A stretch of DNA of 22,752 nt from a virus, in IMG/VR virus record IMGVR_UViG_3300036980_000541, positions 1 to 22,752 of that record; one strand, written 5' to 3'. How positions within the stretch are numbered: position 1 is the first letter of the stretch; each line of letters starts with the position of its first letter. Shown here piece after piece: positions 8,055 to 22,752 of the stretch. Under the pieces are notes generated by a model. The model was not told the DNA's origin and searched no databases. It saw only the letters and a list, made by a program, of their open reading frames with translations. The position numbers and the translations under genes were made by a program.

Positions 8055-8825
8055 ATGGACTTGGACTTCAAGGCAATCATCGAGCAAGCGGCACAACTGG
8101 ACCAGCAGGGCGGCGCGACCGCACCGGAGCAAACCCCAGAGCCGCAGCAAACCGCAGAACCGACCGCGCAACAGGAAGCCTCAGCGGCACCCGCTCCCGC
8201 GGAACCAACCCGCCAAGACCCGCCCCAGATGGTGCCGGTACAGCGGTTGGCGGCTGCGACCAGAAAGGCCAAAGCCTACGAGCAGCAGTACCACGAAAGC
8301 CAACAGCGCATCAGCGAGTACGACAGCAAGATCAGGGAACTGGAAACAGCCCTTGCTCAAGTGAAGAAAGCGGATGCGACCGACGACGATGCGTGGCTAG
8401 ACGAACATCTCAACGGTGGTGCCGGTGCAGCCGACAAGACCGTGAAAGCCTTGGAGGCGCGTCTAGAGAAGTTCGAGAAGTGGCAGGCGGCTGAAGAACA
8501 GCGCGCCGTTCACGCTCAAGAGGACTCGCTGCTCTCAAGCGCAATGACCGACTTGCAGAACGATTGCCAAAACTTTGACGAGGAGATGATTATCACCCTC
8601 CTCGCCAACAAGTGGAGCCCTGAACAGATCGTGGCCAAGCACGCAACGATGCGTTTTGCGCCCAGAGCGCCGACCGCAACCAAGCCTGCCGCAGCCGCCC
8701 CCGCTCCACCGCCCCAGATCGCGCAGCCCGGCACCGCGCCCAAGGCTACGTCCAACGACATGCCCTTTGACCAGTGGATCAAGAAGGGCTTTAAAGAAGA
8801 CCTCAAGCGTCACGGCATCGCCTAG
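8055..8825 (+). CDS. Capsid scaffolding protein (probable)
   Basis: The 256-residue product immediately precedes the major capsid gene, the usual place of a scaffold. It begins MDLDFKAIIEQAAQLDQ, followed by a Pro/Gln/Ala-rich disordered stretch (about 20-60). Next come helices with coiled-coil character (about 60-105, RLAAATRKAKAYEQQYHESQ ... IRELETALAQVKK, and about 128-160, VKALEARLEKFEKWQAAEEQ). A second Ala/Pro linker precedes a short basic C-terminal helix (DQWIKKGFKEDLKRHG). In scaffolds, a basic helical tail binds the coat protein inside the procapsid. The Shine-Dalgarno is weak (GGGCGGGA). No protease motif is evident. The assignment rests on composition and position. Confidence 0.78.
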   Translation: MDLDFKAIIEQAAQLDQQGGATAPEQTPEPQQTAEPTAQQEASAAPAPAEPTRQDPPQMVPVQRLAAATRKAKAYEQQYHESQQRISEYDSKIRELETALAQVKKADATDDDAWLDEHLNGGAGAADKTVKALEARLEKFEKWQAAEEQRAVHAQEDSLLSSAMTDLQNDCQNFDEEMIITLLANKWSPEQIVAKHATMRFAPRAPTATKPAAAAPAPPPQIAQPGTAPKATSNDMPFDQWIKKGFKEDLKRHGIA

Positions 8826-8843: not shown

Positions 8844-10127
8844 ATGCCAGCTACCCTCGCAAGCTTGAACGCCATCCTCAAAGAGGCGTACGTCGAGCAG
8901 AAGATCCAGGACCAGTTCAACGAGAACGTCGATTCCTGGAAGGACTTCGACAGCGTTGACCTCAAGTGGACCGGCTCGCAGGCCATCTTCCCGCTGCGCG
9001 TCGCCCGCAACAACAGCGTCAATGCGTCGAGCACCAGCAACACGCCCGCCGCCGGCCAGCAGGGCTACCTGCGCTTGGTCGTGACCGCTCAGAAGGTCTA
9101 CGCCTCGGCGGAAATCCTCGGCGAAGCGATCGCCGCTGCCAGCACCACCGCCGGCTCGTTCGCGGTTGAACCCGCGGAAGAACTCAACGGCATGGTCAAG
9201 GACTACAACAAGCGCCTTTCGCAGTTGTCGTTCTTCGGCGGCGTCTGCATCGGCTTTGTGTGGCAGAAGCAGAACGCGGCCACCTTCGGCTACAGCGGTC
9301 GGTTCTTCGACATCGCCCTCGGCGTTGGCGAAACCGTGTCGTTCTTCCGCATGGACACCTACGCCGCCGTCGGCGCTGCCACGCAGTTGAACGCCATCAG
9401 CAGCACCAGCCTCACGCTGAACGCCGCCATCAACACCGCAGCAGTGACTGCGGGCGTCCTGATCGCGGTCGTCGTGACCGGATTGCAAGCCGCCCTGACC
9501 GAGCCCCGCACCATCGCCCCGACCTCGGCTGCCGGCATCGACCCGGCGCTCACCGCTGAGCCCATCGGCATGATCGGCAACCTCGGCTTGCAGAGCCACT
9601 TTGGCCTGAACCGCAACAGCGGCACCGCGGGCGAAGTGACCTTGCGCTCCAACTTCCGCGCCGTGGACGACACGCTCCCGGCGGGTGGCGCCCTGGGTCT
9701 GGACGACCTGCAAGTGCTGGACTCGACCATCCAGACCGTTTCCGGTCGCCGGAGCGACAAGCGTTGGTCGAGTTGGAACCAGTTGAACAGCTACCCCGCG
9801 CTGCTCCAGGGCACCTCGGCGGGCAACCTGCGCACCGACGTCAAGACCTCGGCCAGCAAGGCGGATGCCGGGTACACCGACTTCGCCTACGCCAACATCC
9901 CGTTCATGGCCAGCGACTCTTGCCCTGACGGTCTGTTCATCAACATCTGCAAGGACACCTGGAGCCGCGCCACGCTGAAGGCTGGCCACTTCATCGACTT
10001 CGGCGAGGGCACCTTCACCCGCGTCCCGAACACCGACAAGGCTCAGGCGTCCTACGCGACCTACTACAACCTCGTCTGCAAGCAGCCCAACGCCAACGGC
10101 GTCATCGCTGCCCTCGACCTGGTGTAG
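8844..10127 (+). CDS. Major capsid protein (HK97-fold type)
   Basis: An excellent Shine-Dalgarno (AAGGAG, 8830-8835) precedes ATG 8844, fitting a highly expressed gene. The 427-residue product shows the order expected of HK97-fold coat proteins. An N-terminal helix (LASLNAILKEAYVEQKIQDQ) is followed by an extended arm with IFPLRVARN and a glycine/serine loop. Then comes a spine-helix region (AEELNGMVKDYNKRLSQLSFFGG) and a long beta-rich segment that may include an inserted domain (about 150-235). The C-terminal part ends in a typical strand set around FINICKDTWSRATLKAGHFIDFG. It follows the scaffold and precedes a strong hairpin. The name rests on pattern and location; no maturation protease gene was recognised nearby. 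Confidence 0.88.
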   Translation: MPATLASLNAILKEAYVEQKIQDQFNENVDSWKDFDSVDLKWTGSQAIFPLRVARNNSVNASSTSNTPAAGQQGYLRLVVTAQKVYASAEILGEAIAAASTTAGSFAVEPAEELNGMVKDYNKRLSQLSFFGGVCIGFVWQKQNAATFGYSGRFFDIALGVGETVSFFRMDTYAAVGAATQLNAISSTSLTLNAAINTAAVTAGVLIAVVVTGLQAALTEPRTIAPTSAAGIDPALTAEPIGMIGNLGLQSHFGLNRNSGTAGEVTLRSNFRAVDDTLPAGGALGLDDLQVLDSTIQTVSGRRSDKRWSSWNQLNSYPALLQGTSAGNLRTDVKTSASKADAGYTDFAYANIPFMASDSCPDGLFINICKDTWSRATLKAGHFIDFGEGTFTRVPNTDKAQASYATYYNLVCKQPNANGVIAALDLV

Positions 10128-11035: not shown

Positions 11036-11311
11036 ATGGACGGATATGAAATCGGCAGTGAAGCGGTTGACCCGTTTGACCAAGCTGCCCTAGCCTCTGC
11101 TGCGAAGCGGAGGCTGGCGTCCATGCGTCGTCGCCCCGTAGGAGTTGAGCCAGACGCCATGGACACCGCCGGGGATACCCTCGGCGGTGCCCTGGCGGGT
11201 GCGGCAACCGGAGCGGCGCTCGGCACTGCTGTCCCGGTGGTCGGAAACGCACTCGGCGCAGGCGTCGGTGGCCTCATCGGCGCGTTCCAAGGGTTCACCA
11301 AGCGCAAGTAG
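11036..11311 (+). CDS. Small glycine-zipper virion-associated protein (91 aa)
   Basis: AGGAGG at 11024-11029 with a six-base spacer supports ATG 11036. The first half is hydrophilic and contains LASAAKRRL (19-27), a peptide shared with other late proteins here. Residues 46-87 form a continuous glycine zipper (GDTLGGALAGAATGAALGTA, then GNALGAGVGGLIGAFQGF) with two membrane-compatible helices, ended by basic TKRK. Glycine zippers insert into or oligomerise within membranes and occur in small ejected virion proteins and some holin- or bacteriocin-like peptides. The position between capsid and portal genes favours a minor internal virion protein. The function is inferred. Confidence 0.75.
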   Translation: MDGYEIGSEAVDPFDQAALASAAKRRLASMRRRPVGVEPDAMDTAGDTLGGALAGAATGAALGTAVPVVGNALGAGVGGLIGAFQGFTKRK

Positions 11312-11317
11312 GAATCC

Positions 11318-13354
11318 ATGATCAACTTCGGCCAAGGCCCAGAACCGCAAATCGACGACGTGCGGGACTTGCAGCCGGAGAGCGCAGGCGGCGTCATCGA
11401 GCCGGGCGACACCGACAGCCCGAGCCTGACGCCCAAGCAAATCGCAGAGTTCTCCGACCAGTTCCTAGCGGATACGCGGAGTTACTACTACAACACCTGG
11501 ATGGAGTGCGTCAACCTCATCAGCGACTTCCGCCGCATGGGTGGAGGCGTCGTTGCCAAGGCGGGCGGCACCACGGGCGCTATGCAGTTCCTGCGCCCCC
11601 GCTTCGTCAACGTCAACATCGTGCAGCCGCTGTACCGCAACGTGGTCGCCCGCCTGAGCGTGGAGCAGCCAAGTTGCGTGGTCATCCCGGCGTCGCCCAG
11701 CACCGAGGACATTGTGCAGGCGCAGGCAGCCGAGCAGGCGCTCAAGTACTTCTGGCGAGCTGCCGAGGTCAAGAAGCACCTGACGGAAATGATCGAGTGG
11801 ATGGCGCTGTTGGGCACCGCGGGGCTGTTCACTGAAGTCGTCAACGGCAGGCAGGCAGGCGACACCTACGTCGGCGACGTGAAGGTCCGCGCCATCAGCC
11901 CTGACCGCATCCGAGCTGAGCCCGGTGTCGGCAACCCCGACGACAGCCGCTTTCTGGGCATCACCATCCTGACCACCAAGGACGCGCTCAAGCGGCAGTT
12001 CCCTGACAAGGCAGTGATCATCGACCAAGCGCCGACGCCCACCATGCCGTTTGGCCCTAGCACGTCGCAGTTCGGTGCCAAAGCCGCACCAGACCGCGTG
12101 GAAGTGCTGCAAGCCTACTGCCGCAGCGGGCACTGGTTCACGCTCTGTGGTGCCGAAGTGCTGGCCCAAGGTCGCGTCGCCGGCAACCGGATGCCGTTGC
12201 AGATTGCCCGCTACACCAAGATCCCCGGCCAGTTCTTTGGCATGGGCATGGTCGAGCCAAACCTGTCGATTCAGTTCCTGTTCAGCGACACACTCAACCA
12301 GATTGCCCAGAACGCTCGCATGATGGGCAATCCCAAGGTCATGGTCGAGCAGAACAGCAAAGTGGCCAACGACGCTTTCACCAGCCGCGTGGGCGAGATC
12401 ATCAAGTTCAGCGGCCAGGCACCGACAGTGTGGGTGCCGCCACCGCTGCCCGCCTACATCCAGCAGATGCCTGCGATGCTGCAAAGCTACAGCCACGACG
12501 TCACCGGCATCCACACCACGACCAGCGGCAAGCGCGCCGTCGGCATCAGCTCTGGTCGCGCGATTGAGGCACTGACCAGCAACGACCTTGCGCAATTGCA
12601 GTCCACGCAGGACGCCATCACCTACGCGGTTGAGGGTATGTCCACGACTGCGCTGGCGTTCATCAAGGCGTACTACCCCGAAGAGAAGGTGATGCGCGCC
12701 TTTGACCAGTACGGGCGCGGGATCTTCAAAGCCATCAGCAAGACCGACTTGGGCGATACGCCGGAAGTGTTCGTGGAAGCCGACACCCTGTTCTCGGCCA
12801 CCGTCAAGGACCGCGACCAGAAAACGCTCGACCTGCTCCGCTTGGGCATGGTCGACGCCGCGACCGCCAAGAAGATGCTGAGTTACCACCTCGACCCCAT
12901 GGCTCCGCTTGAGGAAGTGGCGGACATGCAGCACGCGCAAACCGTGCTCATGACCGTTGCAGACGACGGCTACTGGCTGTTGAACCCTGCGACCGGGTTG
13001 CCGCAAGTGGACGCGCTGACGGGGCAGCAGAAGGCCCGCGTGGTCATCTACCCGACCGATAACCTCGACGTGTTCGAGCGCGTGATCCGCGACTTCATGC
13101 GGACCGACGCCTTCCGCAGCATGGACAAGGAAGCGGCAGACGGTGTGGACGCGCTGTACCAGGAGGTGATCAAGATGATCGCAGCCAAGATGGTGCCGCC
13201 GGAAGCCAAGGAAATGAACAGCAACGGCAACCCCAAGGGCATGGGCGAGCCGGGAGCGCCACCGCTTCCGCAGGCGTTGCCGGGCAATATGGACACCACC
13301 GCCGCGGCTGATGCTGCGGTTGAATCTGCTGAGGCGGATACGGGACTTGCCTAA
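11318..13354 (+). CDS. Portal protein (P22-like podovirus type)
   Basis: The 678-residue protein has the length and pattern of P22-type portals, the dodecameric ring at the packaging vertex that serves as DNA entry and exit. After a 40-residue acidic leader come SYYYNTWMECVNLISDFRRM, IVQPLYRNVVARLSVEQPS and PASPSTEDIVQAQAAEQALKYF (about 45-155). These correspond to the clip/wing start where portals have YRN.VA..SVEQP-type sequence. The central region includes PDRIRAEPGVGNPDDSRFLG and NLSIQFLFSDTLNQIAQNARM, and the long stem/crown helices continue to about residue 620. A Pro/Gly/Ala-rich tail follows. The start has AGGA four bases upstream, and the stop overlaps the adaptor gene (TAATG). It is encoded after the capsid gene, an uncommon order. 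Confidence 0.9.
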   Translation: MINFGQGPEPQIDDVRDLQPESAGGVIEPGDTDSPSLTPKQIAEFSDQFLADTRSYYYNTWMECVNLISDFRRMGGGVVAKAGGTTGAMQFLRPRFVNVNIVQPLYRNVVARLSVEQPSCVVIPASPSTEDIVQAQAAEQALKYFWRAAEVKKHLTEMIEWMALLGTAGLFTEVVNGRQAGDTYVGDVKVRAISPDRIRAEPGVGNPDDSRFLGITILTTKDALKRQFPDKAVIIDQAPTPTMPFGPSTSQFGAKAAPDRVEVLQAYCRSGHWFTLCGAEVLAQGRVAGNRMPLQIARYTKIPGQFFGMGMVEPNLSIQFLFSDTLNQIAQNARMMGNPKVMVEQNSKVANDAFTSRVGEIIKFSGQAPTVWVPPPLPAYIQQMPAMLQSYSHDVTGIHTTTSGKRAVGISSGRAIEALTSNDLAQLQSTQDAITYAVEGMSTTALAFIKAYYPEEKVMRAFDQYGRGIFKAISKTDLGDTPEVFVEADTLFSATVKDRDQKTLDLLRLGMVDAATAKKMLSYHLDPMAPLEEVADMQHAQTVLMTVADDGYWLLNPATGLPQVDALTGQQKARVVIYPTDNLDVFERVIRDFMRTDAFRSMDKEAADGVDALYQEVIKMIAAKMVPPEAKEMNSNGNPKGMGEPGAPPLPQALPGNMDTTAAADAAVESAEADTGLA

Positions 13355-14043
13355 TGTACGTCCACGAAATCGCCGACTACGCCCGCCTAATCGCCGACGA
13401 CCCTGACCAGGTGCAACTGAGCCAAGCCCGGCTCGCCACCATCCTCAAGATCGCCTACAAGCAATTCCGCGGCTACGTCCCAAGCGAGGTCTACGAGATC
13501 AAGCAAGGCCCCGTGACCGCGACCGGGCAGTACAACATCGACCTGAACAATGTGATCTTTGGAACGGCACCGACTGCGGCGCGGGCTCAGAAGTTGACGC
13601 GGGTTCAGTTGGTCGACGCGACAACTGGTGTCGTGGAGCAGATCCTGCCGCCGCGGTCCAGCATGGAATCGCTTGGGCAGAACGGCGCCACGTCGGTCTT
13701 CTGGAACGGTGGCCCCTGCTGGTGGCTAGACGGGCGCGTCCTGCGCTTCTCCGGCCCTGTGACGGGCTCACTTGAAGTCTGGTATCTGCCCGACGAGTCG
13801 GTGAACTGGACGGCTGGCGTGGTCACTGGAGCCAACGTCTATGTCGACGACCTAGACCGCTGGCACGACATCATTGCGCTGCTGGCCATTGGCCGCTCGT
13901 ACTCGATGGCAGACGGCGTCACGCAGGCGAACGTCAAGCAGACCCTCGGCGAACGCCTAGCGGAGATGGAGCAATTCTTCTCCGAGAGCCGCAGTGGCAA
14001 GGCAAGCCGGTACGTTCAGGATGTAGGAGGCTATGGTGGCTGA
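13354..14043 (+). CDS. Head-tail adaptor protein (probable)
   Basis: Overlapping the portal stop by one base, this 229-residue protein lies where podoviruses encode the adaptor that closes the portal after packaging. It begins with a helix (YVHEIADYARLIADDPDQ ... ARLATILKIAYKQFRGY) and has a beta-rich centre (about 45-150, YEIKQGPVTATGQYNIDLNN and WWLDGRVLRFSGPVTG). It ends with long helices (RWHDIIALLAIGRSYSMA, LGERLAEMEQFFSESRS). Terminal helices around a beta domain fit gp4/gp11-like adaptors in length and organisation, but sequence identity to a named family is not recognised. The 3' end contains the AGGAGG used by the next gene. Confidence 0.68.
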   Translation: MYVHEIADYARLIADDPDQVQLSQARLATILKIAYKQFRGYVPSEVYEIKQGPVTATGQYNIDLNNVIFGTAPTAARAQKLTRVQLVDATTGVVEQILPPRSSMESLGQNGATSVFWNGGPCWWLDGRVLRFSGPVTGSLEVWYLPDESVNWTAGVVTGANVYVDDLDRWHDIIALLAIGRSYSMADGVTQANVKQTLGERLAEMEQFFSESRSGKASRYVQDVGGYGG

Positions 14044-14305
14044 CCTATCTGAAGCCGCCAAGCGACGGCTCAACCAACCGTTCCGCACGCCGGGCGAGAA
14101 CAAGAAGTTTGCTGTCTACGTCAACGACGACGGCAAGGACAAGATCGTCCGCTTTGGCGACCCCGACATGGAGATCAAGCGCGACGACCCAGAGCGCCGC
14201 GCCAACTTCCGTGCTCGGCACAACTGCGACGAGAAAACCGACAAGACGACGCCAGGTTACTGGAGTTGCCAACAGTGGCGCGCTGGCGCCAAAGTAGAGG
14301 GATGA
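14033..14305 (+). CDS. Small protein with conserved RARHNC...YWSC domain (90 aa)
   Basis: The product reads KKFAVYVNDDGKDKIVRFGD, then MEIKRDDPERRANFRARHNC and TPGYWSCQQW. I recognise this as a conserved phage domain often found as an extension of capsid maturation proteases or as a free small protein near head genes. The invariant H, C and second C (63, 64 and 78) suggest metal binding; its function is unknown. Here it stands alone, preceded by EAAKRRL (7-13). Start choice is uncertain. AGGAGG (14025-14030) is two bases from ATG 14033 but five from GTG 14036, so GTG 14036 may be the true start. The stop overlaps ATG 14302. Confidence 0.85.
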   Translation: MVADLSEAAKRRLNQPFRTPGENKKFAVYVNDDGKDKIVRFGDPDMEIKRDDPERRANFRARHNCDEKTDKTTPGYWSCQQWRAGAKVEG

Positions 14306-14355
14306 CTATGGAAAACGAGGACAAGATGCTGAGTAGGAGCCCCCATGGACACTGA
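14302..14355 (+). CDS. Possible 17-codon ORF overlapping two genes
   Basis: ATG 14302 overlaps the preceding TGA (ATGA) and reads MTMENEDKMLSRSPHGH before a TGA at 14353-14355. It spans the small gap to the next gene and overlaps its start by 11 bases. Only GAGG lying against the ATG is available for ribosome binding, so it may merely carry terminating ribosomes towards the next Shine-Dalgarno (TAGGAG, 14334-14339). It could be a translational relay or chance. Confidence 0.25.
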   Translation: MTMENEDKMLSRSPHGH

Positions 14356-14518
14356 AATGCTCGCCAATGCAGCCAAGCGCAAACTACAGGCGACGCCGAT
14401 CTTGACCATCACCATCGCCGCTGGCGGTCCTGGCAAGGGTATGGACAAGCCACACCCCGAGGGCTGCAAGTGCGAGGAGTGCGCTGGGGAAGGGGAAGAG
14501 GAGGGGGAGGATGCCTGA
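14345..14518 (+). CDS. Small cysteine-cluster protein with acidic tail (57 aa)
   Basis: ATG 14345 has TAGGAG at 14334-14339 five bases upstream. The product starts MDTEMLANAAKRKLQATPIL, carrying the recurrent LANAAKRKL peptide at residues 6-14. It continues with a hydrophobic strand (ILTITIAAGG), then HPEGCKCEEC (37-46; H37, C41, C43 and C46 could form a metal site). The tail is very acidic (GEGEEEGEDA). The DNA encoding that tail (14491-14510) is a GA-rich run that also supplies the Shine-Dalgarno of the next gene, whose ATG lies inside this gene. I know no family for it. Its placement with other AAKRRL-bearing small proteins suggests a virion-assembly role. Confidence 0.68.
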   Translation: MDTEMLANAAKRKLQATPILTITIAAGGPGKGMDKPHPEGCKCEECAGEGEEEGEDA

Positions 14519-15020
14519 GCCTCGCACTGTTCAAGTGAACTACAACTCGGACGGTCCTGGGTTTGACGACTTAGCAAAGGGGTTGACCCCCGACCAGAAG
14601 CACCGTTATACGCAATGGCGTTCGTCGCAACGGCAGGCGTATGCCGACGCCTACGACAGCGGGAAACTCAAAGGGATGCGCGAGCGCGGAGAGACGTTCC
14701 CCAACACGTTGTCCATGTTCGCTCGCCCAGGCACCGATGAGGATTCGCTATTTGAAATGATGGGCGAAAGCGAGACGGATAGTCAGTCGGAAATTGACCA
14801 CCCCTTCGGCAAAGAGTTCGGCAGCCAGTACGCCAGCCCTCAAGCAGCCGCTCGGCGCATGACCCCGGCACGGCCACCAATGGCCACGCCCAAGGCGGGC
14901 TACAACGACCTCAACAGCCGCCAAGTCGGCATCAGCGAGCGCACCTTTCTGCAACCGGAAAGCCCACTAGCCAACGCCGCCAAGCGCAGACTGGAGAAAG
15001 CCCGTGGCCAACGCCGCTGA
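14511..15020 (+). CDS. Unknown 169-residue virion-module protein with C-terminal LANAAKRRL
   Basis: ATG 14511 overlaps the preceding gene by eight bases and follows a GA-rich Shine-Dalgarno (GAGGAGG). The N-terminal part holds NYNSDGPGFDD, a YNSDG element also seen in the protein at 21264-22001. A helical and charged segment follows (PDQKHRYTQWRSSQRQAYAD), then an acidic stretch (GTDEDSLFEMMGESETDSQS). The C-terminal 60 residues look disordered and basic, with AAARRM (112-117), a GYNDLNS element and LANAAKRRL (153-161) close to the end. I recognise no family. Low-complexity tails with repeated short motifs suggest an internal or scaffold-like virion component rather than an enzyme. Confidence 0.72.
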   Translation: MPEPRTVQVNYNSDGPGFDDLAKGLTPDQKHRYTQWRSSQRQAYADAYDSGKLKGMRERGETFPNTLSMFARPGTDEDSLFEMMGESETDSQSEIDHPFGKEFGSQYASPQAAARRMTPARPPMATPKAGYNDLNSRQVGISERTFLQPESPLANAAKRRLEKARGQRR

Positions 15021-18000
15021 CCAGACGGTGAATCTGACGCCCACCAAGGGCATGGATCTGCGGTCGCTGACCAAGCAGGCCGGCTCGCCGTTTCTCCAGA
15101 ACGTGCTGACGCGCAACGGCGACTTCCAAGCGCGCCCCGGCTTTGGGCTTGTGCGCGCCTACGACACCACGCTCAACAACGGGCGGACGTTGCTGACGAT
15201 CCCGCCGATGGACACCTTCGCTCTTGACGCCCCTATCGGCGTGCAAACCATCCGCACGTCTTGGGGCAGTGACCAGATCGTCACCGTCCACCCCGTCCGC
15301 GGCTACAACGGAAACCTGCGCACAACCAGCACGTTCAGCACCGAGGCCCCACTCGGTGGCCCCCGCGGCTATGTGATGAGCAGCGTCGCCGTGGTGGTCC
15401 ACGACCTGGCCAGTGACCAGCACTTCGAGTTCGTCCTGCACCAGCAAGACGTGCTTGACGCCGACCTGATGCGGCACTTCCCGCACTACGCCACCCGCTT
15501 TGACCTCAACAGCAGCGGTGCCGTGGAGCACACTCGTTGGCTGACCACGCAGCGCACGCCGACGTGGGCGCTGATTGTGCCGTTTGAGTCGGCAGTCATC
15601 ATCGCAATCGACGGCTGCGGGCTGTGGTGCTACCGCCCCGTGGACACGCCGGTTCTACCCGACCGCAAGGTCAACAGCCTGAACATCACGACCAGCAGCC
15701 TGTACGCGCTTGGCGAAGTCGCCGCGTGCAGCCCGTTGAACCTGGCTGACGGTGTGCTGATTGCCAAAGAGCAAAACTACCTGACGCCGAGTGAGTTTGG
15801 GCAACCCAATGCCATGGGCGCCTACGACAACCGCATGATCTACGCGGTTGGCAACGCCCTGTACTTCAGCGACCTGTACCAGCCAAACGCCATCCTGACC
15901 GACAGCATCGAGGTGTGCCCGTTCCTGGACCCCGTGACGGTGGTGTGCAATGTCCGCGGCACCCTGTTCGTGGCCAGCGCCAAGCAATCGTGGGTCTACC
16001 AGCCGGCGCAGGGCACCGTGACCTTGCAGGGCGGTTCATGGACCATGCTGTCTGGTGCGGCAGGGTGCGTAAACAACCGCGCCTTCGCGCTCGCCGACCA
16101 GGGCCTGTTCTTCGTGGAGGACTCTGGCGTCTACTCCTACGCAGGCGGTGTGGTGCTTCAGCACATCAGCGAGCCTGTGGACAGGCTGTGGACAGATGCT
16201 GCAAGTCTGCAAATGGTATTGACAGATTACTACACCGCGACTGGACAGACGCTGTTGACCGACGACCAATTGCCCGCCCGCATCGACGTGCGCGCCGAAA
16301 CACCAAACGCCCGCTGCCATTGGAACCAAGAGCGCGGGATGCTGTTCGTCACGCTCAACAGCGCAACGCTGGTCTACACCTTGGGTTTTGGCTGGTCGGT
16401 CTGGTACTTCGCGTCGCACGCTGGCTGGAACGACGAGGTGTTTGGCATTGCGACCATCGACCACCCCCACTTCGCGTCGTCGGGGCAGCGGCTGTTCATG
16501 GTCGGCGGGGTTGACAATGTTGGCTACAGCGACCCCGAGATCGGTGCCGGTTTTGCAGCCCAATCCTGCTACCTCCTAGAACTAGGCCGTGGCGGCGCGA
16601 TTGACCGCAGCACATCGATTGACCCCGCACTGCGCGACGCCTACACCGTCACGCTGTCGGGCTACTGGACCACTGGCGACACCCTGCGCGTGACCATCAA
16701 CGGCGTAAACTACGACACGGTAATGAGCGCCGCCAACGCCGCGGCCACCGACCCGCTTGCTGCCTTTGCAGCCAGCGTCAACGCTGTCGTCACAGCCAAC
16801 CCCGAGTACTTCACCAACGCCACGCTGACCGGTTGCACCTTCCTGGCACAGACAGCCGGGCTGGTCGCCTTCACGGTGAGCGCGTCGGTGCTAGTCGGCT
16901 CAGGCACAGTGGCCACGGTCCACACCCGCACTGGTGCCGCCGCCGACAACAGCGAGGCGCAACTAGAGGACCAGCGCACCCCGATCGGTGGCTGGGTGAT
17001 GTTCGGCACATTCCCTGACACGACGACGCAACCAAGCGTTTGGGTCGGGCAGCCCGTGGTGGTGCCAGCAGGGTACGAGACTCGCACGGGAGCCGCGTTG
17101 GCTTACGAGTCGCTGTGGTTTCCGGTGTCGATTGGGCATTGGGAGAACGGTGGCGGCGCAGCTCCGACCACGTTCAGCCTGCGCTTTCTGTTCAACAGCA
17201 CGGTCTGGACGCCGGTTCTTGTCGGTGCCACGGCTGAGTTCGACTTCCAGATGCCCAGCCGCCGCATCGCCGCCATCGCAGGCTTTGCCCCTGGTGCGCC
17301 GGTTGCAGCTCGACAAGTCGCCGTCTACGACCCAGGAACTGGCGCGCTGGACCCCGCCGGCAACGAAGTGCGAATCAACTTCAACGGCGCTGCGGGAATC
17401 TGGACCAGCGCACCGCAACTGAATATGAGCCCGGTCGGCCCCGACGAGTTGGTCTGGATTGGCTTTCGCAACGACCTGGACCAGGACTGTTGGCAACTGC
17501 CGATCGCGTCAAGCCAAGTGCGCGTCGATGGCGTCGCATCACCGTTCTACGCCTGGCAGCAGGGCCTGTACGCCGCCGCCTACGAGGACTTGGCCAACAA
17601 GCAGCAGCCGTTGGATTGGGCTGTCAAGACGCTGGAAGTCCAGAGCCGTGGCGAGCAGATCCGCGTGCGCGGCGTCTACCTTGAGGTCCAGCACCTCGGC
17701 ACAGGCAACAACGAAGTCACGCAGTTCTGGCAGTACGGGCCGCTGAACACCGCCACGTCGAGCGATATGCGGGACTACAGCGGGCAGGCCGTGGACTTCT
17801 TCACTACCCCGCCCGGCAACAGCGAGCAGAACGACATCAACCCGCGCAAGCGATTGCAAACTGTGACCGGCACCGAACCGCACCTAAAGACCTTCAACAA
17901 CATCGCCAAGTGGGCCAGCACCGCAGACCCGAGTAAGGGCAACCTATTGATTGACGACGCGCAAGTGGACACGGTAGCCACCACGGACGGGACGCAGGGC

Positions 18001-18114
18001 AACAAAGCCAGCGTACTGGTCCACGGCACCATGAACGCTCCCGGTGACGGCGTGCGCCTCGGCTCCGTTGAAGCGGTCATCCGCGTCGTTGGTGGCCGGA
18101 GAAGGTGGCACTGA
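15004..18114 (+). CDS. Large tail hub/nozzle-like protein (podovirus tail tube component)
   Basis: GTG 15004 overlaps the preceding gene by 17 bases, with GGAGAAAG upstream. The 1036-residue product has an N-terminal NGDFQARPGFGLV (38-50). This is the RPG signature seen near the start of P22 gp10- and T7 gp12-type tail hub/nozzle proteins, which extend the portal-adaptor channel. The remainder is beta-rich with repeated short blades (for example MGAYDNRMIYAVGNALYFSD, GTLFVASAKQSWVYQPAQG, GLFFVEDSGVYSYAGG), suggesting a propeller. Residues about 545-650 look like an inserted beta domain (YTVTLSGYWTTGDTLRVTIN ... AFAASVNAVV). It is longer than typical P22 gp10. The stop overlaps the next gene (TGATG). 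Confidence 0.78.
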   Translation: MANAADQTVNLTPTKGMDLRSLTKQAGSPFLQNVLTRNGDFQARPGFGLVRAYDTTLNNGRTLLTIPPMDTFALDAPIGVQTIRTSWGSDQIVTVHPVRGYNGNLRTTSTFSTEAPLGGPRGYVMSSVAVVVHDLASDQHFEFVLHQQDVLDADLMRHFPHYATRFDLNSSGAVEHTRWLTTQRTPTWALIVPFESAVIIAIDGCGLWCYRPVDTPVLPDRKVNSLNITTSSLYALGEVAACSPLNLADGVLIAKEQNYLTPSEFGQPNAMGAYDNRMIYAVGNALYFSDLYQPNAILTDSIEVCPFLDPVTVVCNVRGTLFVASAKQSWVYQPAQGTVTLQGGSWTMLSGAAGCVNNRAFALADQGLFFVEDSGVYSYAGGVVLQHISEPVDRLWTDAASLQMVLTDYYTATGQTLLTDDQLPARIDVRAETPNARCHWNQERGMLFVTLNSATLVYTLGFGWSVWYFASHAGWNDEVFGIATIDHPHFASSGQRLFMVGGVDNVGYSDPEIGAGFAAQSCYLLELGRGGAIDRSTSIDPALRDAYTVTLSGYWTTGDTLRVTINGVNYDTVMSAANAAATDPLAAFAASVNAVVTANPEYFTNATLTGCTFLAQTAGLVAFTVSASVLVGSGTVATVHTRTGAAADNSEAQLEDQRTPIGGWVMFGTFPDTTTQPSVWVGQPVVVPAGYETRTGAALAYESLWFPVSIGHWENGGGAAPTTFSLRFLFNSTVWTPVLVGATAEFDFQMPSRRIAAIAGFAPGAPVAARQVAVYDPGTGALDPAGNEVRINFNGAAGIWTSAPQLNMSPVGPDELVWIGFRNDLDQDCWQLPIASSQVRVDGVASPFYAWQQGLYAAAYEDLANKQQPLDWAVKTLEVQSRGEQIRVRGVYLEVQHLGTGNNEVTQFWQYGPLNTATSSDMRDYSGQAVDFFTTPPGNSEQNDINPRKRLQTVTGTEPHLKTFNNIAKWASTADPSKGNLLIDDAQVDTVATTDGTQGNKASVLVHGTMNAPGDGVRLGSVEAVIRVVGGRRRWH

Positions 18115-18605
18115 TGCCACGCATTGAACTCATCCCCAACAAGCAGACCGACGAGGCAGCCGAACGGCAGCGGCGGCGCGAAGCCACCTTTGGCGAACTT
18201 GCGCCTATCACCCCAGCGACACGCAACGACATGCTCGCCGCCACCGCCTTTGCTGGCCAGGGCACCTACCGCGGCGGCGTGTTGCCGGAGGACTTCGACC
18301 TGACCGGCGTGCGCGGCGCGGCGTTCGACAGGGCAGTGACCATCAACGGGACCGGCATTGTCCGCGGCTTTGTGTTCAACGAGACAGTGCTACTCGGTGT
18401 CGACGCCAAGGTGTCGTTCATGGGTTGCACCTTTCAGAAGGCCATCACTGTGACCGCAGGAGGCAAAATCGTCGCCACCGGTTGCCTGTTCGACGGCACG
18501 AGCGCGATACTGAACGCTGGCGCGGCGGCGGATTCCGGCATTGTGGGCGGCATAAAAATCAGCGCCGTTGCACACACCAATACCACCGTGATCTTCGAGG
18601 TGTAG
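18114..18605 (+). CDS. Beta-helix-like tail or head surface protein (163 aa)
   Basis: ATG 18114 overlaps the hub stop (TGATG) and is preferred to an in-frame GTG at 18105. The first 40 residues are helical and charged (NKQTDEAAERQRRREATFGE). From about 50 on the sequence shows short repeating strands and turns: GTYRGGVLPEDFDLTGVRGA, FDRAVTINGTGIVRGFVFNE, VSFMGCTFQKAITVTAGGKI, VATGCLFDGTSAILNAG. That is the rhythm of a parallel beta-helix as in pectate-lyase-like phage spikes. Its small size suggests a tail-associated accessory or spike base rather than a complete depolymerase, and no active-site triad can be seen. Confidence 0.7.
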   Translation: MPRIELIPNKQTDEAAERQRRREATFGELAPITPATRNDMLAATAFAGQGTYRGGVLPEDFDLTGVRGAAFDRAVTINGTGIVRGFVFNETVLLGVDAKVSFMGCTFQKAITVTAGGKIVATGCLFDGTSAILNAGAAADSGIVGGIKISAVAHTNTTVIFEV

Positions 18606-18606
18606 C

Positions 18607-19449
18607 ATGGGAACCAGCAACCGTGTGCTACCTCACCAGTTCGCGCCGGGCAACACCGCGGACTTCACGCGCGTCGAGCAGGCGTTGCTCAAACTCACCG
18701 ACACCTTCAACGATGTGCCGGCGCAGTTCGTACAGCGCCGCTGGTCGCACAACTCGCTGGTGTGGGGTTACTCACCACCCGATGATACGACCCCCAACAT
18801 GCTGCCGTTCCTGCGCTGCATCAACAACAGCACGTCGTTCTCAGTGCTTGAGCCGCCAGTAGCCGCCGACATCAAGAACCTACAACGGGTGAAGTCCTGC
18901 TACGTCCCAGCGATTGCGCCCAACAACGGCAGCCAAGACCTGTTGACTTGGGAAGTGGCGTGGCAGTGTGCAAAGCCGACGATTATCGGTGGGTTTACGC
19001 TGGCGGCTGAGGCGCGCGCGTCACTCATAGCCACAGGTCCATACACCAACTTTTGGCGGTTCGGTGCTGGTGCTCCCGTGCCATCCGACCCCGTTGACGA
19101 CTACACGGTACAAGTTTGTATCGACGACGGCTTTGACCTGGTCAACCGTAAACGGCTTCGGCAAGAGGCGCTGGTCTACAACATGCGCTCCGACGCCTTC
19201 CAGTTCTACCCCGCGACGGGCCTCCCGGCAGCACTCGACACCATGCAGCCCGCACACCCAAGCGATGAGGCATGGGACGGCATTCTGATTGACATCGAGC
19301 AATTGGTCCTCGTCCCAGCCGGAGCCCGCGTCCGCTGCCTGTTCACGGTGCCGCTCTACAGCGACGCAACCTACGCGCAATGGGCAGCGACACCGCAGGC
19401 GCTCAACGTGTGGTCCTGCACCGCGCAAGTCTGGGAGGCGACCGTATGA
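18607..19449 (+). CDS. Unknown 280-residue virion structural protein
   Basis: The gene starts one base after the previous stop, with GAGGTG as Shine-Dalgarno, and its stop overlaps the next ATG (ATGA). It begins MGTSNRVLPHQFAPGNTADF, followed by a helix (RVEQALLKLTDTFNDVP). Beta-rich sequence follows with many aromatics (RRWSHNSLVWGYSPP, YTNFWRFG, YTVQVCIDDGFDLVNRK). The C-terminus (ARVRCLFTVPLYSDATYAQW ... NVWSCTAQVWEATV) ends as strands. I do not recognise a family. The QF[AT]P opening recalls the start of the next protein (NQFTPKRF), so the two may be distant paralogues. Likely a minor tail or capsid component. Confidence 0.72.
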   Translation: MGTSNRVLPHQFAPGNTADFTRVEQALLKLTDTFNDVPAQFVQRRWSHNSLVWGYSPPDDTTPNMLPFLRCINNSTSFSVLEPPVAADIKNLQRVKSCYVPAIAPNNGSQDLLTWEVAWQCAKPTIIGGFTLAAEARASLIATGPYTNFWRFGAGAPVPSDPVDDYTVQVCIDDGFDLVNRKRLRQEALVYNMRSDAFQFYPATGLPAALDTMQPAHPSDEAWDGILIDIEQLVLVPAGARVRCLFTVPLYSDATYAQWAATPQALNVWSCTAQVWEATV

Positions 19450-21197
19450 ACCAGTTTACACCCAAACGCTTTGCCCGCGGTGTGCGCGCCACCATCGAGC
19501 ACGTCTACGATCCGTTGGACGACATTGCTACCGCGGCAGCCGACGTTGATGAGTTGATCTCCAACACTGTTGAAGACCTCGGAACCTCAACGGTTGTGTG
19601 GAACGTGCCCTACATGCGGCAGTGGAGCGCGGCACCACGGTCAGTGGCCGACGGGATGCCCGACGCCTACATGCCGTTCCTGATGCCACCGTTCCAGCAG
19701 CAGTTCAACCGCGCGACGTTAGCGCCGCCTGACTACCAAGTGGTCCTGCGCGACCTGTCGATTGCGATTGACCAGCGAGCGGAGGCGTTGGGCATCACCA
19801 GCCCCGACGCCGCAACCCAGGGGCTTCTGACGGCCTGCGACATGACCCGCTACACTGTGACGCTCAAACTATACGAGCGGTCGCCGTGGTCGCTCACAGG
19901 CATTGCAACGTCCGACCTGTCGAGCAAGACGGAGTTGTTGTCGTTGGAAGTGCCCGGCGTGGAAGTCTTTGGCAACGAGTTCACCCTGTCGCCGTTCCTG
20001 CAAGAGAACCTGAACATCACCATCAAGCCGTTCAAGGTCTACTTCTGGGAGGTCTACTGCCCTGGCTTGACGACGACGAACGCGGTCACTGAGGAGGAAT
20101 TGGCGCTGGTGAGCTTCACCCTGCGCGCCACCTTCACGTCGCCGCTGACTACCCGCGATTCCGTCAACGAGTCGGAGTGGGGCGGCACCCCGCCCGGGAT
20201 CCAGAACATCCCCACCAAGCACAACGGCGACAAGACGGCGACCACGATTCCTGTGTCCACGCCAGCCGCTGACGCAATCATCACCGGCACCGACTTGCAG
20301 ACCGCCTTCCATGAGTTTGACGAGACACTGCGCCGCCGGCTACCAAGTGGCTACGGCACGGGCGCGGGGTCGCTTAGCAATTCGATGCAGGCAGCGGACG
20401 CGCCACCGACCGAACTGATACTCGACGACGCCTGCTACCACATGATCGTGGTGCCGATGTGGAGCGGGCAACAGCAGGGCGGCGTGAAGGCGTCACAGAT
20501 TGGCGGTTCTGCGGTGCTACCGTACATGAACTGGCCAGTGGCGGGAGCCCCCTACGCCCGCCCCTGCATCGACACGCGGCTGATCCCCGTGCCGGATAAC
20601 TTCGTGTTGCACCACGCCTTTGCGGTGTGGAACAACTACTGGCCTAACTCGGTGCTGGCGAACAATGGCGAGCGCGCCAAGATTGCTGGAGCGCCCCCAC
20701 CTGCCGACCCTGACTACATCCAAAAGATCGGCATTGCGCTCAACAGTGGTGGAAGATCCGACAGTTACCGCTACCAGCAGGTTGCCTACTTTGAGTGGAC
20801 CGCTGCGCTCAGCACCTACGTCGACTACTACCAAGCCTTCTTCCCCTCCACGCAAACGCTCACCGACCGCTTCAGCATCGTGCAATTGCCGCTGGTGTGG
20901 CCAGACGTGCTATGGGACGACAACAGTTACGAGCCGAGCGGGCAACCGTTCTTCATGGGCACCGCCAACAGCACCACAGCGGCGCGGTCCAATGCCGGGG
21001 CCATGCCTGGCGCGTTTGGTGGCGGTGCGCTTGACGTGCCGCTGACCGAAGGCTGCGAGCGACACCTGGAAGTGCGCTGGATCAAGGAGCGCGACGATGG
21101 CGTCACCGGGCTTGAGGGCGGTGTCGCGACCAGCACCCGTGTTGGCTGGAACGGCGAGTGGATCATCCTGTGCGGCAAGAAAGTGGTCGGCAGATAG
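19446..21197 (+). CDS. Large unknown virion structural protein (583 aa)
   Basis: The start is ATG 19446, overlapping the previous stop (ATGA), with GGGAGG at 19433-19438. The frame continues upstream to 19380, but that stretch lies within the preceding gene. The product begins MNQFTPKRFARGVRATIEHV and has a helical N-terminus with acidic residues (DVDELISNTVED). A long mixed beta region follows with many aromatics and prolines (ADGMPDAYMPFLMPPFQQQF, NITIKPFKVYFWEVYCPGLT, HHAFAVWNNYWPNSV). The C-terminus ends GWNGEWIILCGKKVVGR. No enzymatic motif stands out. Size, composition and position after the hub suggest a tail fibre/spike precursor or major accessory tail protein. I cannot assign a family. 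Confidence 0.72.
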   Translation: MNQFTPKRFARGVRATIEHVYDPLDDIATAAADVDELISNTVEDLGTSTVVWNVPYMRQWSAAPRSVADGMPDAYMPFLMPPFQQQFNRATLAPPDYQVVLRDLSIAIDQRAEALGITSPDAATQGLLTACDMTRYTVTLKLYERSPWSLTGIATSDLSSKTELLSLEVPGVEVFGNEFTLSPFLQENLNITIKPFKVYFWEVYCPGLTTTNAVTEEELALVSFTLRATFTSPLTTRDSVNESEWGGTPPGIQNIPTKHNGDKTATTIPVSTPAADAIITGTDLQTAFHEFDETLRRRLPSGYGTGAGSLSNSMQAADAPPTELILDDACYHMIVVPMWSGQQQGGVKASQIGGSAVLPYMNWPVAGAPYARPCIDTRLIPVPDNFVLHHAFAVWNNYWPNSVLANNGERAKIAGAPPPADPDYIQKIGIALNSGGRSDSYRYQQVAYFEWTAALSTYVDYYQAFFPSTQTLTDRFSIVQLPLVWPDVLWDDNSYEPSGQPFFMGTANSTTAARSNAGAMPGAFGGGALDVPLTEGCERHLEVRWIKERDDGVTGLEGGVATSTRVGWNGEWIILCGKKVVGR

Positions 21198-21206
21198 AAA
21201 ACGCAC

Positions 21207-21221
21207 GCGCCACCTTGGCGC
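21207..21221 (+). terminator. Weak hairpin in the gap after the 583-residue protein gene
   Basis: GCGCC (21207-21211) pairs with GGCGC (21217-21221) around a five-base loop in the 66-base gap before the next gene. There is no U-run, so it is at best a weak pause or partial terminator. Confidence 0.25.
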
Positions 21222-21263
21222 AATGGCCGTTGCCGCGTAGGCTTATGGCGTTTGGAGGGCATT

Positions 21264-22001
21264 ATGGCTCAGTTCGATTTCAAGCAAGCGATCGCGAAGG
21301 TGGAAGCGAACAAGCCTAAGCCGGCACCTGTCGCGCCCAAGCCGGGCTACAACAGCGACGGTTCAGACAGCGCGGTCTGGGGAGAACTGAACAAGTTGGT
21401 GCCGGAAGCCGACGCCAAACTGGCAGGCATTGCTAGCCAAACCGCCGCCAACCAAGCGCAAAAGCTCAGCGGCTACGAGCAACAACTGGCTGCTGCCCAA
21501 GCCGGCGAGCAGGACTTTGCCGTCCGCGAGGGCATGATCTCCAAAGAAGCCACAGCCGCCGCCCGCAACCTGAACAGGCAGGGCGCTGCCATTGCTGCGC
21601 GCAACAAGAACCTTGGACAATCACGCGGACAAGCCAGAGAATTTGCGGACACCCGCGCGCAGATGGATACGGCATACGGTCGGCAACAGTTGGAAAACGC
21701 AGCCCAGCGCCGCGCGGCTCAACAGCAAGCCGGCGCTTTGCAGTCCACGCTGGCCGAGGAGAAGCAGCGGGCTCTGGTCCAGCAGACCACCGGCAAACAG
21801 GACGCGCTCAACCAGATGTACGCGCAGATTGACGAGATTGAAGACTCCACGAACAAAGCCAACCCTGTCCACTTGAGCGACGGGGAAGTGATGCAGGCGG
21901 CTGAGGAAATGCGACGCAAGGTGTTACCAGGCGCGACGAGCGCTGAAGAGCGCGCTGCCATCGAGGCGTACATCCAGCAGTACATCGCCGACAACACCTA
22001 A
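21264..22001 (+). CDS. Coiled-coil, Gln/Ala-rich virion protein (245 aa; internal or ejection-protein-like)
   Basis: GGAGG at 21254-21258 lies five bases before ATG 21264, so this ATG is preferred to an in-frame TTG at 21252. After a short basic/proline linker with KPGYNSDG (26-33), nearly the whole protein is helical and rich in Ala, Gln and Glu (QQLAAAQAGEQDF, NLNRQGAAIAARNKN, LENAAQRRAAQQQ, STLAEEKQRALVQQ). The C-terminal helix contains EERAAIEAYIQQYI. Such helical, repetitive proteins often serve as internal virion or ejection proteins or as scaffolds in podoviruses. The segment LENAAQRRA (143-151) nearly matches the AAKRRL-type motif found in other late proteins. No known family is recognised. 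Confidence 0.72.
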   Translation: MAQFDFKQAIAKVEANKPKPAPVAPKPGYNSDGSDSAVWGELNKLVPEADAKLAGIASQTAANQAQKLSGYEQQLAAAQAGEQDFAVREGMISKEATAAARNLNRQGAAIAARNKNLGQSRGQAREFADTRAQMDTAYGRQQLENAAQRRAAQQQAGALQSTLAEEKQRALVQQTTGKQDALNQMYAQIDEIEDSTNKANPVHLSDGEVMQAAEEMRRKVLPGATSAEERAAIEAYIQQYIADNT

Positions 22002-22012
22002 GGAGGGCTGCA

Positions 22013-22752
22013 ATGGCGCGCATCATCCCGCAGACCCAACCCGATCCGTTTGCCCCGCAAGTCGCAGGGTTGCACTCCACCCGTCAGCGCCCCTACCAGG
22101 GCTTCCAAACCGCCAACAAGTTCTTGGACACAGCCGCCGCAGTGGCCAACTCGCCGCTGACCGGACTTGCCATGCGCGGCATCCAAGCCGGTGCCGGTGG
22201 CATCAGCGACATGCTCTCTGCTGCCGCCGCCCGTCGCATGGAGGAGTACAAGGCTGGCGGGTTGGAAGGCGAGTTGTCGCCTGACCTTGCGGCACCCGAG
22301 CCCTACAAGCCGATGGAAGGGTTGTCGCTGAGCGGCAAGGAGCCAAAGGGGCTTGGGTTGTCGCTGCGGGATATGCCAGAGCAGTCGCCGCCACAGGGCT
22401 GGAGTTCCGAGTCTCGCGTGGGTGAGTTGCAGGACACGCTTGGCGCTGACCTTGCCCGGGCTGCCCAGCGGAAGTTGGGGGTTGAGCCTGTCGATGCCCG
22501 CCAGAGCGCGCTAGGCAAGGGCATCCTGCCTGCGTTCACGTCGCCCCGCGTTCCTGGTTTAGAGATGGACCCCGACGCAGCGCGCCTTGACGCAGCGATT
22601 GCCGAGAGTCCACGACCACGACCACGACCTGTCGGAGCGAGCGCCGTCAAGCAAAGCCTGATCGACAACACCGTCATGGGTGCGTTTGTATCGCCCCGCG
22701 TTCCCGGCTTGGAGATGGACCCCGACGCCGTTAGGTTGACCAGACCGCCCCA
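22013..22752 (+). CDS. Repeat-bearing virion protein, 3' end outside window
   Basis: AGGAGGG at 22001-22007 precedes ATG 22013, and the frame is open to the window edge (246 codons plus two bases). The protein has a helical, Gly/Ala-rich segment (about 47-76, GLAMRGIQAGAGGISDM) ending in AAARRMEEYK. A low-complexity stretch with GLSLSGKEPKGLGLSL follows, then LARAAQRKL (147-155), a member of the recurrent motif. Two copies of AFxSPRVPGLEMDPDAxRL (174-192 and 224-242) repeat 50 residues apart, with PRPRPRP between them. It seems modular and intrinsically disordered rather than enzymatic. It may be an internal virion protein whose repeats continue past the window. Confidence 0.72.
   Translation, partial: MARIIPQTQPDPFAPQVAGLHSTRQRPYQGFQTANKFLDTAAAVANSPLTGLAMRGIQAGAGGISDMLSAAAARRMEEYKAGGLEGELSPDLAAPEPYKPMEGLSLSGKEPKGLGLSLRDMPEQSPPQGWSSESRVGELQDTLGADLARAAQRKLGVEPVDARQSALGKGILPAFTSPRVPGLEMDPDAARLDAAIAESPRPRPRPVGASAVKQSLIDNTVMGAFVSPRVPGLEMDPDAVRLTRPP
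22532..22738 (+). repeat. Two imperfect 57-bp coding repeats, 150 bp apart
   Basis: Units at 22532-22588 and 22682-22738 encode AFTSPRVPGLEMDPDAARL and AFVSPRVPGLEMDPDAVRL. They differ at several bases, many of them synonymous, so the peptide is probably under selection. Further copies could lie beyond the window end. Confidence 0.9.

Follow-up and report, generated by a model that had tools for sequence, protein, structure and literature searches.

A short peptide tag shared by otherwise unrelated virion-module proteins of an uncultured phage group with a P22-like portal, a candidate docking helix

The DNA analyzed here (the window) spans an entire IMG/VR record, 22,752 bases long, from a small, uncultured group of short-tailed phages with a P22-like portal. 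Its late module runs from the terminase (5944) through a scaffold-like protein (8055), the major capsid protein (8844), a small protein (10202), a glycine-zipper protein (11036), the portal (11318), an adaptor-like protein (13354) and three small proteins (14033, 14345 and 14511) to a tail-hub-like protein (15004), three more proteins (18105, 18607 and 19440) and two ejection-module-like proteins (21264 and 22013), the last of which is cut by the end of the record. Roles for which no family match is cited were given from gene order. The portal is a member of the P22 portal family by both Pfam (P22_portal) and PHROGs (phrog_156). Searches with the portal, the major capsid protein and the tail hub gave no close cultured relative, only a distant Microbacterium phage portal, and the search with the terminase gave only distant matches (about 25% identity or less among the matches listed). 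A genome scan with the terminase returned one match, apparently the same contig as one of the viral relatives described below (L004), placed in a bacterial MAG. The L004 contig appears to equal a 16,113-base contig (L039) binned in a deltaproteobacterial MAG (VGRO01000137.1), which is a weak hint at a host. On the minus strand, upstream of the virion module, a serine-recombinase-like protein (1899-2585) lies beside a small helix-turn-helix-like protein (2582-2749), both judged by eye; the pair may reflect a temperate life style. The landmarks of the virion module and the copies of the short peptide that concerns us (the tag) are as follows.

8055..8825, plus strand: scaffold-like protein, by position; acidic coiled coil; candidate partner of the tag
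8844..10127, plus strand: major capsid protein, phrog_14242 (E 1.7e-21); no tag; virion-module landmark
11090..11116, plus strand: LASAAKRRL, in the pre-portal glycine-zipper protein (ORF 11036-11311)
11318..13354, plus strand: P22-like portal, Pfam P22_portal (66 bits, cut-off 26.1) and phrog_156; candidate partner of the tag
14045..14071, plus strand: LSEAAKRRL, at the N-terminus of the DUF5754/phrog_7595 protein (ORF 14033-14305)
14360..14386, plus strand: LANAAKRKL, at the N-terminus of a 57-aa acidic protein (ORF 14345-14518)
14835..14861, plus strand: SPQAAARRM, a weaker interior copy in the 169-aa protein (ORF 14511-15020)
14967..14993, plus strand: LANAAKRRL, near the C-terminus of the same 169-aa protein (ORF 14511-15020)
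21690..21716, plus strand: LENAAQRRA, a looser copy in an ejection-module protein (ORF from the ATG at 21264 to 22001)
22214..22240, plus strand: LSAAAARRM, in the next ejection-module protein (ORF from 22013 to the window end, cut)
22451..22477, plus strand: LARAAQRKL, a strict match and the second copy in the 22013 protein

The first-pass annotation had described a peptide of the form L-[AS]-x-A-A-[KQ]-R-[RK]-L in five late proteins. Its five copies are indeed the only matches to this strict pattern in the six frames, all on the plus strand and all within sense ORFs, and they sit, as it had stated, at the N-terminus, in the interior or at the C-terminus of their proteins. There is usually one copy per protein, of about 9 to 12 residues, and the window variant, AAKR[RK]L, carries like charges. 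The carriers span at least six protein families and comprise six to eight otherwise unrelated small proteins of the virion module. The glycine-zipper carrier resembles P22_gp7 at 16.7 bits, under the cut-off of 28 and over the zipper region only; the 14033 carrier matches phrog_7595 over its domain (E 1.4e-17) and DUF5754 at 24.2 bits, below the cut-off of 27.4. Profile scans found no tag in the coat, portal, terminase, tail hub or early proteins. The protein at 22013-22752 also has an internal repeat, AFTSPRVPGLEMDPDAARL and AFVSPRVPGLEMDPDAVRL.

We compared the window proteome with shuffled versions of itself, in which each protein was permuted over its full length or within 30- or 15-residue blocks so that composition was preserved. 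The strict pattern arose at a mean of 0.0000 to 0.0003 (maximum 1 in 3,000 runs), against five copies observed; for a relaxed pattern, 0.03 were expected and five seen. A pattern-free search, in which 9-mers recurring across proteins were scored by BLOSUM, returned the tag as the most recurrent 9-mer of the window. The observed recurrence was reached by none of 100 block-shuffles at thresholds 28 and 32 and by one of 100 at threshold 30; in the sister genome described below the pattern-free recurrence was not significant. Chance or composition as the source of the tag was rejected by the shuffles and the pattern-free search. At the DNA level, any two copies agree at 14 to 22 of 27 bases; of the 5 to 8 residues that such a pair has in common, 3 to 5 are encoded by different codons. 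A repeated DNA element was rejected on these grounds, and the differing codons indicate that selection acts on the peptide, the unit that is kept, as the first-pass annotation had proposed.

Searches with the portal, coat, terminase and tail-hub proteins yielded a set of relatives (L001, L004, L005, L006, L007, L008, L015/L016, L018, L021 and L022) together with a sister clade (L041-L049). Homologous small proteins retain the tag in about ten relatives while their flanks diverge, including in relatives with 36-38% GC; a high GC content and about 12% Ala characterize the window and several relatives. A profile built from the five window copies only gave the highest ranks to homologous carriers in L001, L004, L005, L007/L026, L015, L018 and L025, and was weak or failed in L006, L008, L021 and the late region of L022. 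A profile built from the relatives only, with the window and the sister clade excluded, ranked the five strict window copies 1 to 5 among 6,643 window 9-mers, followed by LSAAAARRM (22214) in sixth and LENAAQRRA (21690) in seventh place and then by the AAARRM copy in the 14511 protein. Nothing from the coat, the tail hub or the terminase came close to the tag in this ranking. The looser LENAAQRRA match and the AAARRM peptides of two proteins, both flagged in the first-pass annotation, are thus real, the 14511 copy being the weaker. With a profile from the sister clade only, the window copies did not stand out (their best ranks were 3, 4 and 8).

Conservation can be followed carrier by carrier. 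In most relatives, the glycine-zipper protein ahead of the portal has retained a basic helix of the AAKR type (IRNAAKRQL in L018, LAAAAKRRT in L015, LAAAAKREQ in L004, LQEAAKQRK in L005, MREAAKRKK in L007/L026, VQQAAQQEL in L022 and SRDIAKRRL in L041), and relatives of the 57-aa acidic protein retain the tag N-terminally (LQSAAKRAM in L004, LKGAAGRMA in L015, IQKAAMRAL in L018, LKQAAQNAM in L007/L026 and MRDIAKARL in L044). The L015 homologue of the 14511 protein (BLASTP E 1e-17) has LTSAARRKM at the place of the C-terminal LANAAKRRL and SAEAAAKRT at that of SPQAAARRM. In the ejection module, relatives of the 21264 protein have MQEAAQRAL (L018) and MQKIAQQRL (L044 genome), the 22214 copy corresponds to LKEAAAKKL in L007/L026 and to QKIA[KR]xRL in the sister clade, and the 22451 copy to IRQAAARKMGLEPLQ in L018. 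The tag is therefore real, conserved and above chance, and neither the comparison with shuffled proteomes nor that with homologues refuted the original idea.

The same domains also occur without the tag. In the window the tag is an N-terminal extension of the DUF5754/phrog_7595 domain, and six cultured phages have this domain without it. The phrog_2859 domain has N-terminal copies in L001 and L025 (LQDAAKRKL and LAEAARRKL) and a C-terminal one in the sister clade (L041/L044/L066), and the homologues inspected in S-CBS4, DC31 and a Vibrio phage are without the tag. Both of these small domains are widespread, and they are tagged within this phage group only, N- or C-terminally. An inherent place of the tag in the DUF5754 or phrog_2859 domain was rejected on account of these untagged cultured-phage homologues. 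The occurrence of both domains untagged elsewhere, and the N- versus C-terminal tagging of phrog_2859, make the tag a movable fusion. A 50-aa MPFKS domain of the sister clade ends in MQSIAKERLAKMKK, and its Streptomyces phage matches cover residues 1-27 only. In a phage with a different portal (L029:1032-1763), two adjacent small proteins, one of which is a phrog_2859-type domain, begin with similar helices, VLSVVRKKMAEL and VAIMFRKKMDGM; this is possibly an unrelated phage with a tag of its own.

In the sister clade, whose portals are about 39% identical to that of the window, the tag has changed and can still be aligned, as xxxIA[KRQ]xRL, often followed by xxM. A 52-kb sister contig (G007) holds eight carriers of IA[KRQS]xRL, where 0.09 were expected, for a pattern written after reading L041 and L044. 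The alanine at position 5 and the terminal L or M are mostly conserved across clades; charge is not, and the dibasic pair is lost in sister-clade variants (IAQERL). GC content (57% versus 63%) does not explain the change from A to I at position 4. Across nine genomes, the mean BLOSUM score of aligned tags was 23.1 within the same genome across families, and between genomes 15.9 in the same family and 15.4 across families. Tags thus resemble each other by genome and not by protein family, a pattern reached in 0 of 20,000 permutations of genome labels within families, in 9 of 20,000 with the sister genome left out and in 3 of 20,000 with the window left out. Leaving out both gave 2,114 of 20,000 (11%), which is not significant; the signal is driven mainly by these two tag-rich genomes, in which the sites were partly chosen for likeness.

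AlphaFold models of two carriers were poor overall (mean pLDDT 53 and 50), with the tag in both in a predicted helix within the most confident block of the protein. At this low confidence, AF2 placed helix 16-30 in the glycine-zipper protein and a C-terminal helix, 152-168, as the best part of the 169-aa protein. The models serve only to indicate that the tag is predicted to be helical. In such a helix, the hydrophobic face would be made up of tag positions 1, 4, 5 and 9. As to what the helix might bind, the scaffold-like protein has a conserved acidic and aromatic motif, DDDAWLDEHLN (8382-8414), between its coiled coils, and a motif of roughly the form xWLxx[LI]L with acidic neighbors recurs in the scaffold-like proteins compared (L001, L004, L005, L018, L021, L022, L026, L041, L044, L048 and L055). 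This motif, unlike the tag, hardly changes from genome to genome, and no co-variation between the two is visible. The portal ends in a short conserved helix, AADAAVESAEAD, which lies in its last 24 residues (13280-13351) after a disordered-looking Pro/Gly-rich linker and is well kept in close relatives and loosely in distant ones. From these features we infer that the scaffold is the likeliest partner, on account of its acidic, WLxxLL-like motif, and that the portal C-terminal helix comes next.

A tag that is movable, sits on unrelated domains, is missing from the main structural proteins and changes genome by genome fits a docking tag for one partner. We consider it probable, reasoning from sequence, that the tag forms a short, amphipathic helix for docking, an address by which accessory and ejection-module proteins would reach one common candidate partner. 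All carriers of one genome would bind the same site on that partner, and the site would co-evolve with the tag, so that LANAAKRRLEKA and MRDIAKARLKKM would each prefer the scaffold or portal of their own genome. The carriers lie in the virion module and some are ejection-like, which makes entry into the procapsid the likeliest purpose; binding during procapsid assembly would bring the carriers into the head. The shared address proposed in the first-pass annotation (a docking helix for portal, scaffold or terminase, or a signal placing ejection proteins in the head) is accordingly supported in part and is the best supported reading, given the conservation, the accessory and ejection carriers and the within-genome change. 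More tentatively, the tag might be an uncleaved, position-independent and genome-specific packaging address, with a receptor that co-evolves to give each lineage its own code, and any small protein might be loaded by adding a helix of nine to twelve residues. A shared, movable and lineage-specific tag would predict which unannotated small proteins are virion cargo and would point to a single receptor; the orphan domains DUF5754 and phrog_2859 would become likely packaged proteins in these phages.

Other explanations account for part of these observations. The carriers could bind each other through the tag and co-assemble in one internal body with no separate receptor. With such a homotypic zipper one would equally expect tags to co-vary within a genome and a genome to hold many carriers, and the Ala/Leu face of the predicted helix would suit it; however, the tag is short and usually single in a protein, and the like charges of the window variant would disfavor tag-tag packing, so that we regard this as unlikely. 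Alternatively, the injected proteins could all dock, after ejection, on one host factor or membrane site. Several carriers are ejection-like (the glycine zipper, the weak similarity to P22_gp7) and genome-specific variants could track different hosts, but the small acidic and single-domain carriers give no sign of a common host target and the tagged domains exist untagged in other phages; we hold this explanation to be decidedly improbable.

That a host or phage protease cuts at the tag, an alternative already raised in the first-pass annotation, is weakly disfavored by the data and in our estimate very unlikely. The tag has basic residues, and there are precedents: host OpdA removes the first 20 residues of P22 gp7 (PMC8402733) and the T4 capsid targeting peptides are cut off (PMC5694885). 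The gp7 residues that are trimmed are, however, largely dispensable (PMC8402733), and OpdA trimming is therefore a poor model for the tag. Conservation spans both hydrophobic helix ends and not a cleavage bond, copies also lie near the C-terminus or inside proteins, the dibasic pair is missing from the sister clade, and no prohead protease was matched by Pfam or PHROGs among the window proteins scanned, the record being a fragment. The slimmest chance falls to a generic basic, Ala-rich helix for DNA or membrane binding, alike between proteins through composition. The GC-rich, Ala-rich character of the window and several relatives would favor it, yet neither composition-preserving nor block shuffles produce the tag, which also occurs at 36-38% GC and which the profile scans detected in no coat, tail or early protein. 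Charge varies between clades while position 5 and the terminal residue mostly stay, and the varying charge argues against plain binding to DNA or a membrane.

For a docking address, several known systems offer comparisons. A literature search found the T4 capsid targeting sequence (CTS) and giant-phage propeptides, and no description of this tag. Encapsulins are cellular compartments in which short terminal peptides on unrelated proteins load this cargo into an HK97-fold shell; the cargo peptide binds the shell, a likeness to the tag by description. The route of minor and ejection proteins into the procapsid of P22-like podoviruses is only partly understood. These phages have a P22-type portal, and P22 ejection proteins enter with the help of scaffold, which may be required for entry of gp16 and gp20; gp16 is reduced when the scaffold lacks its acidic N-loop (PMC12005531). 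The binding regions in P22 are large, however (residues 21-154 of gp7 and the N-terminal 314 of gp20) (PMC8402733), and the literature searched describes no shared peptide for its ejection proteins. In T4, a capsid targeting sequence is all that the internal proteins have in common, and it leads them into the scaffolding core (PMC3012670). Here too one short peptide is common to dissimilar accessory proteins, whose place in the head is inferred from gene position. The T4 CTS is a propeptide at the N-terminus, 10-20 residues long, which proteolysis later removes (PMC5694885), whereas the tag may be N-terminal, interior or C-terminal and no prohead protease was matched in the window; the two were compared by description. 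We do not class the tag as a T4 CTS, since it also occurs away from the N-terminus and the window gave no protease match; it would work like the CTS if the docking reading is right. Should this be true, these phages would have a counterpart of the CTS beyond T4-type heads, through which proteins of choice could be loaded into phage particles.
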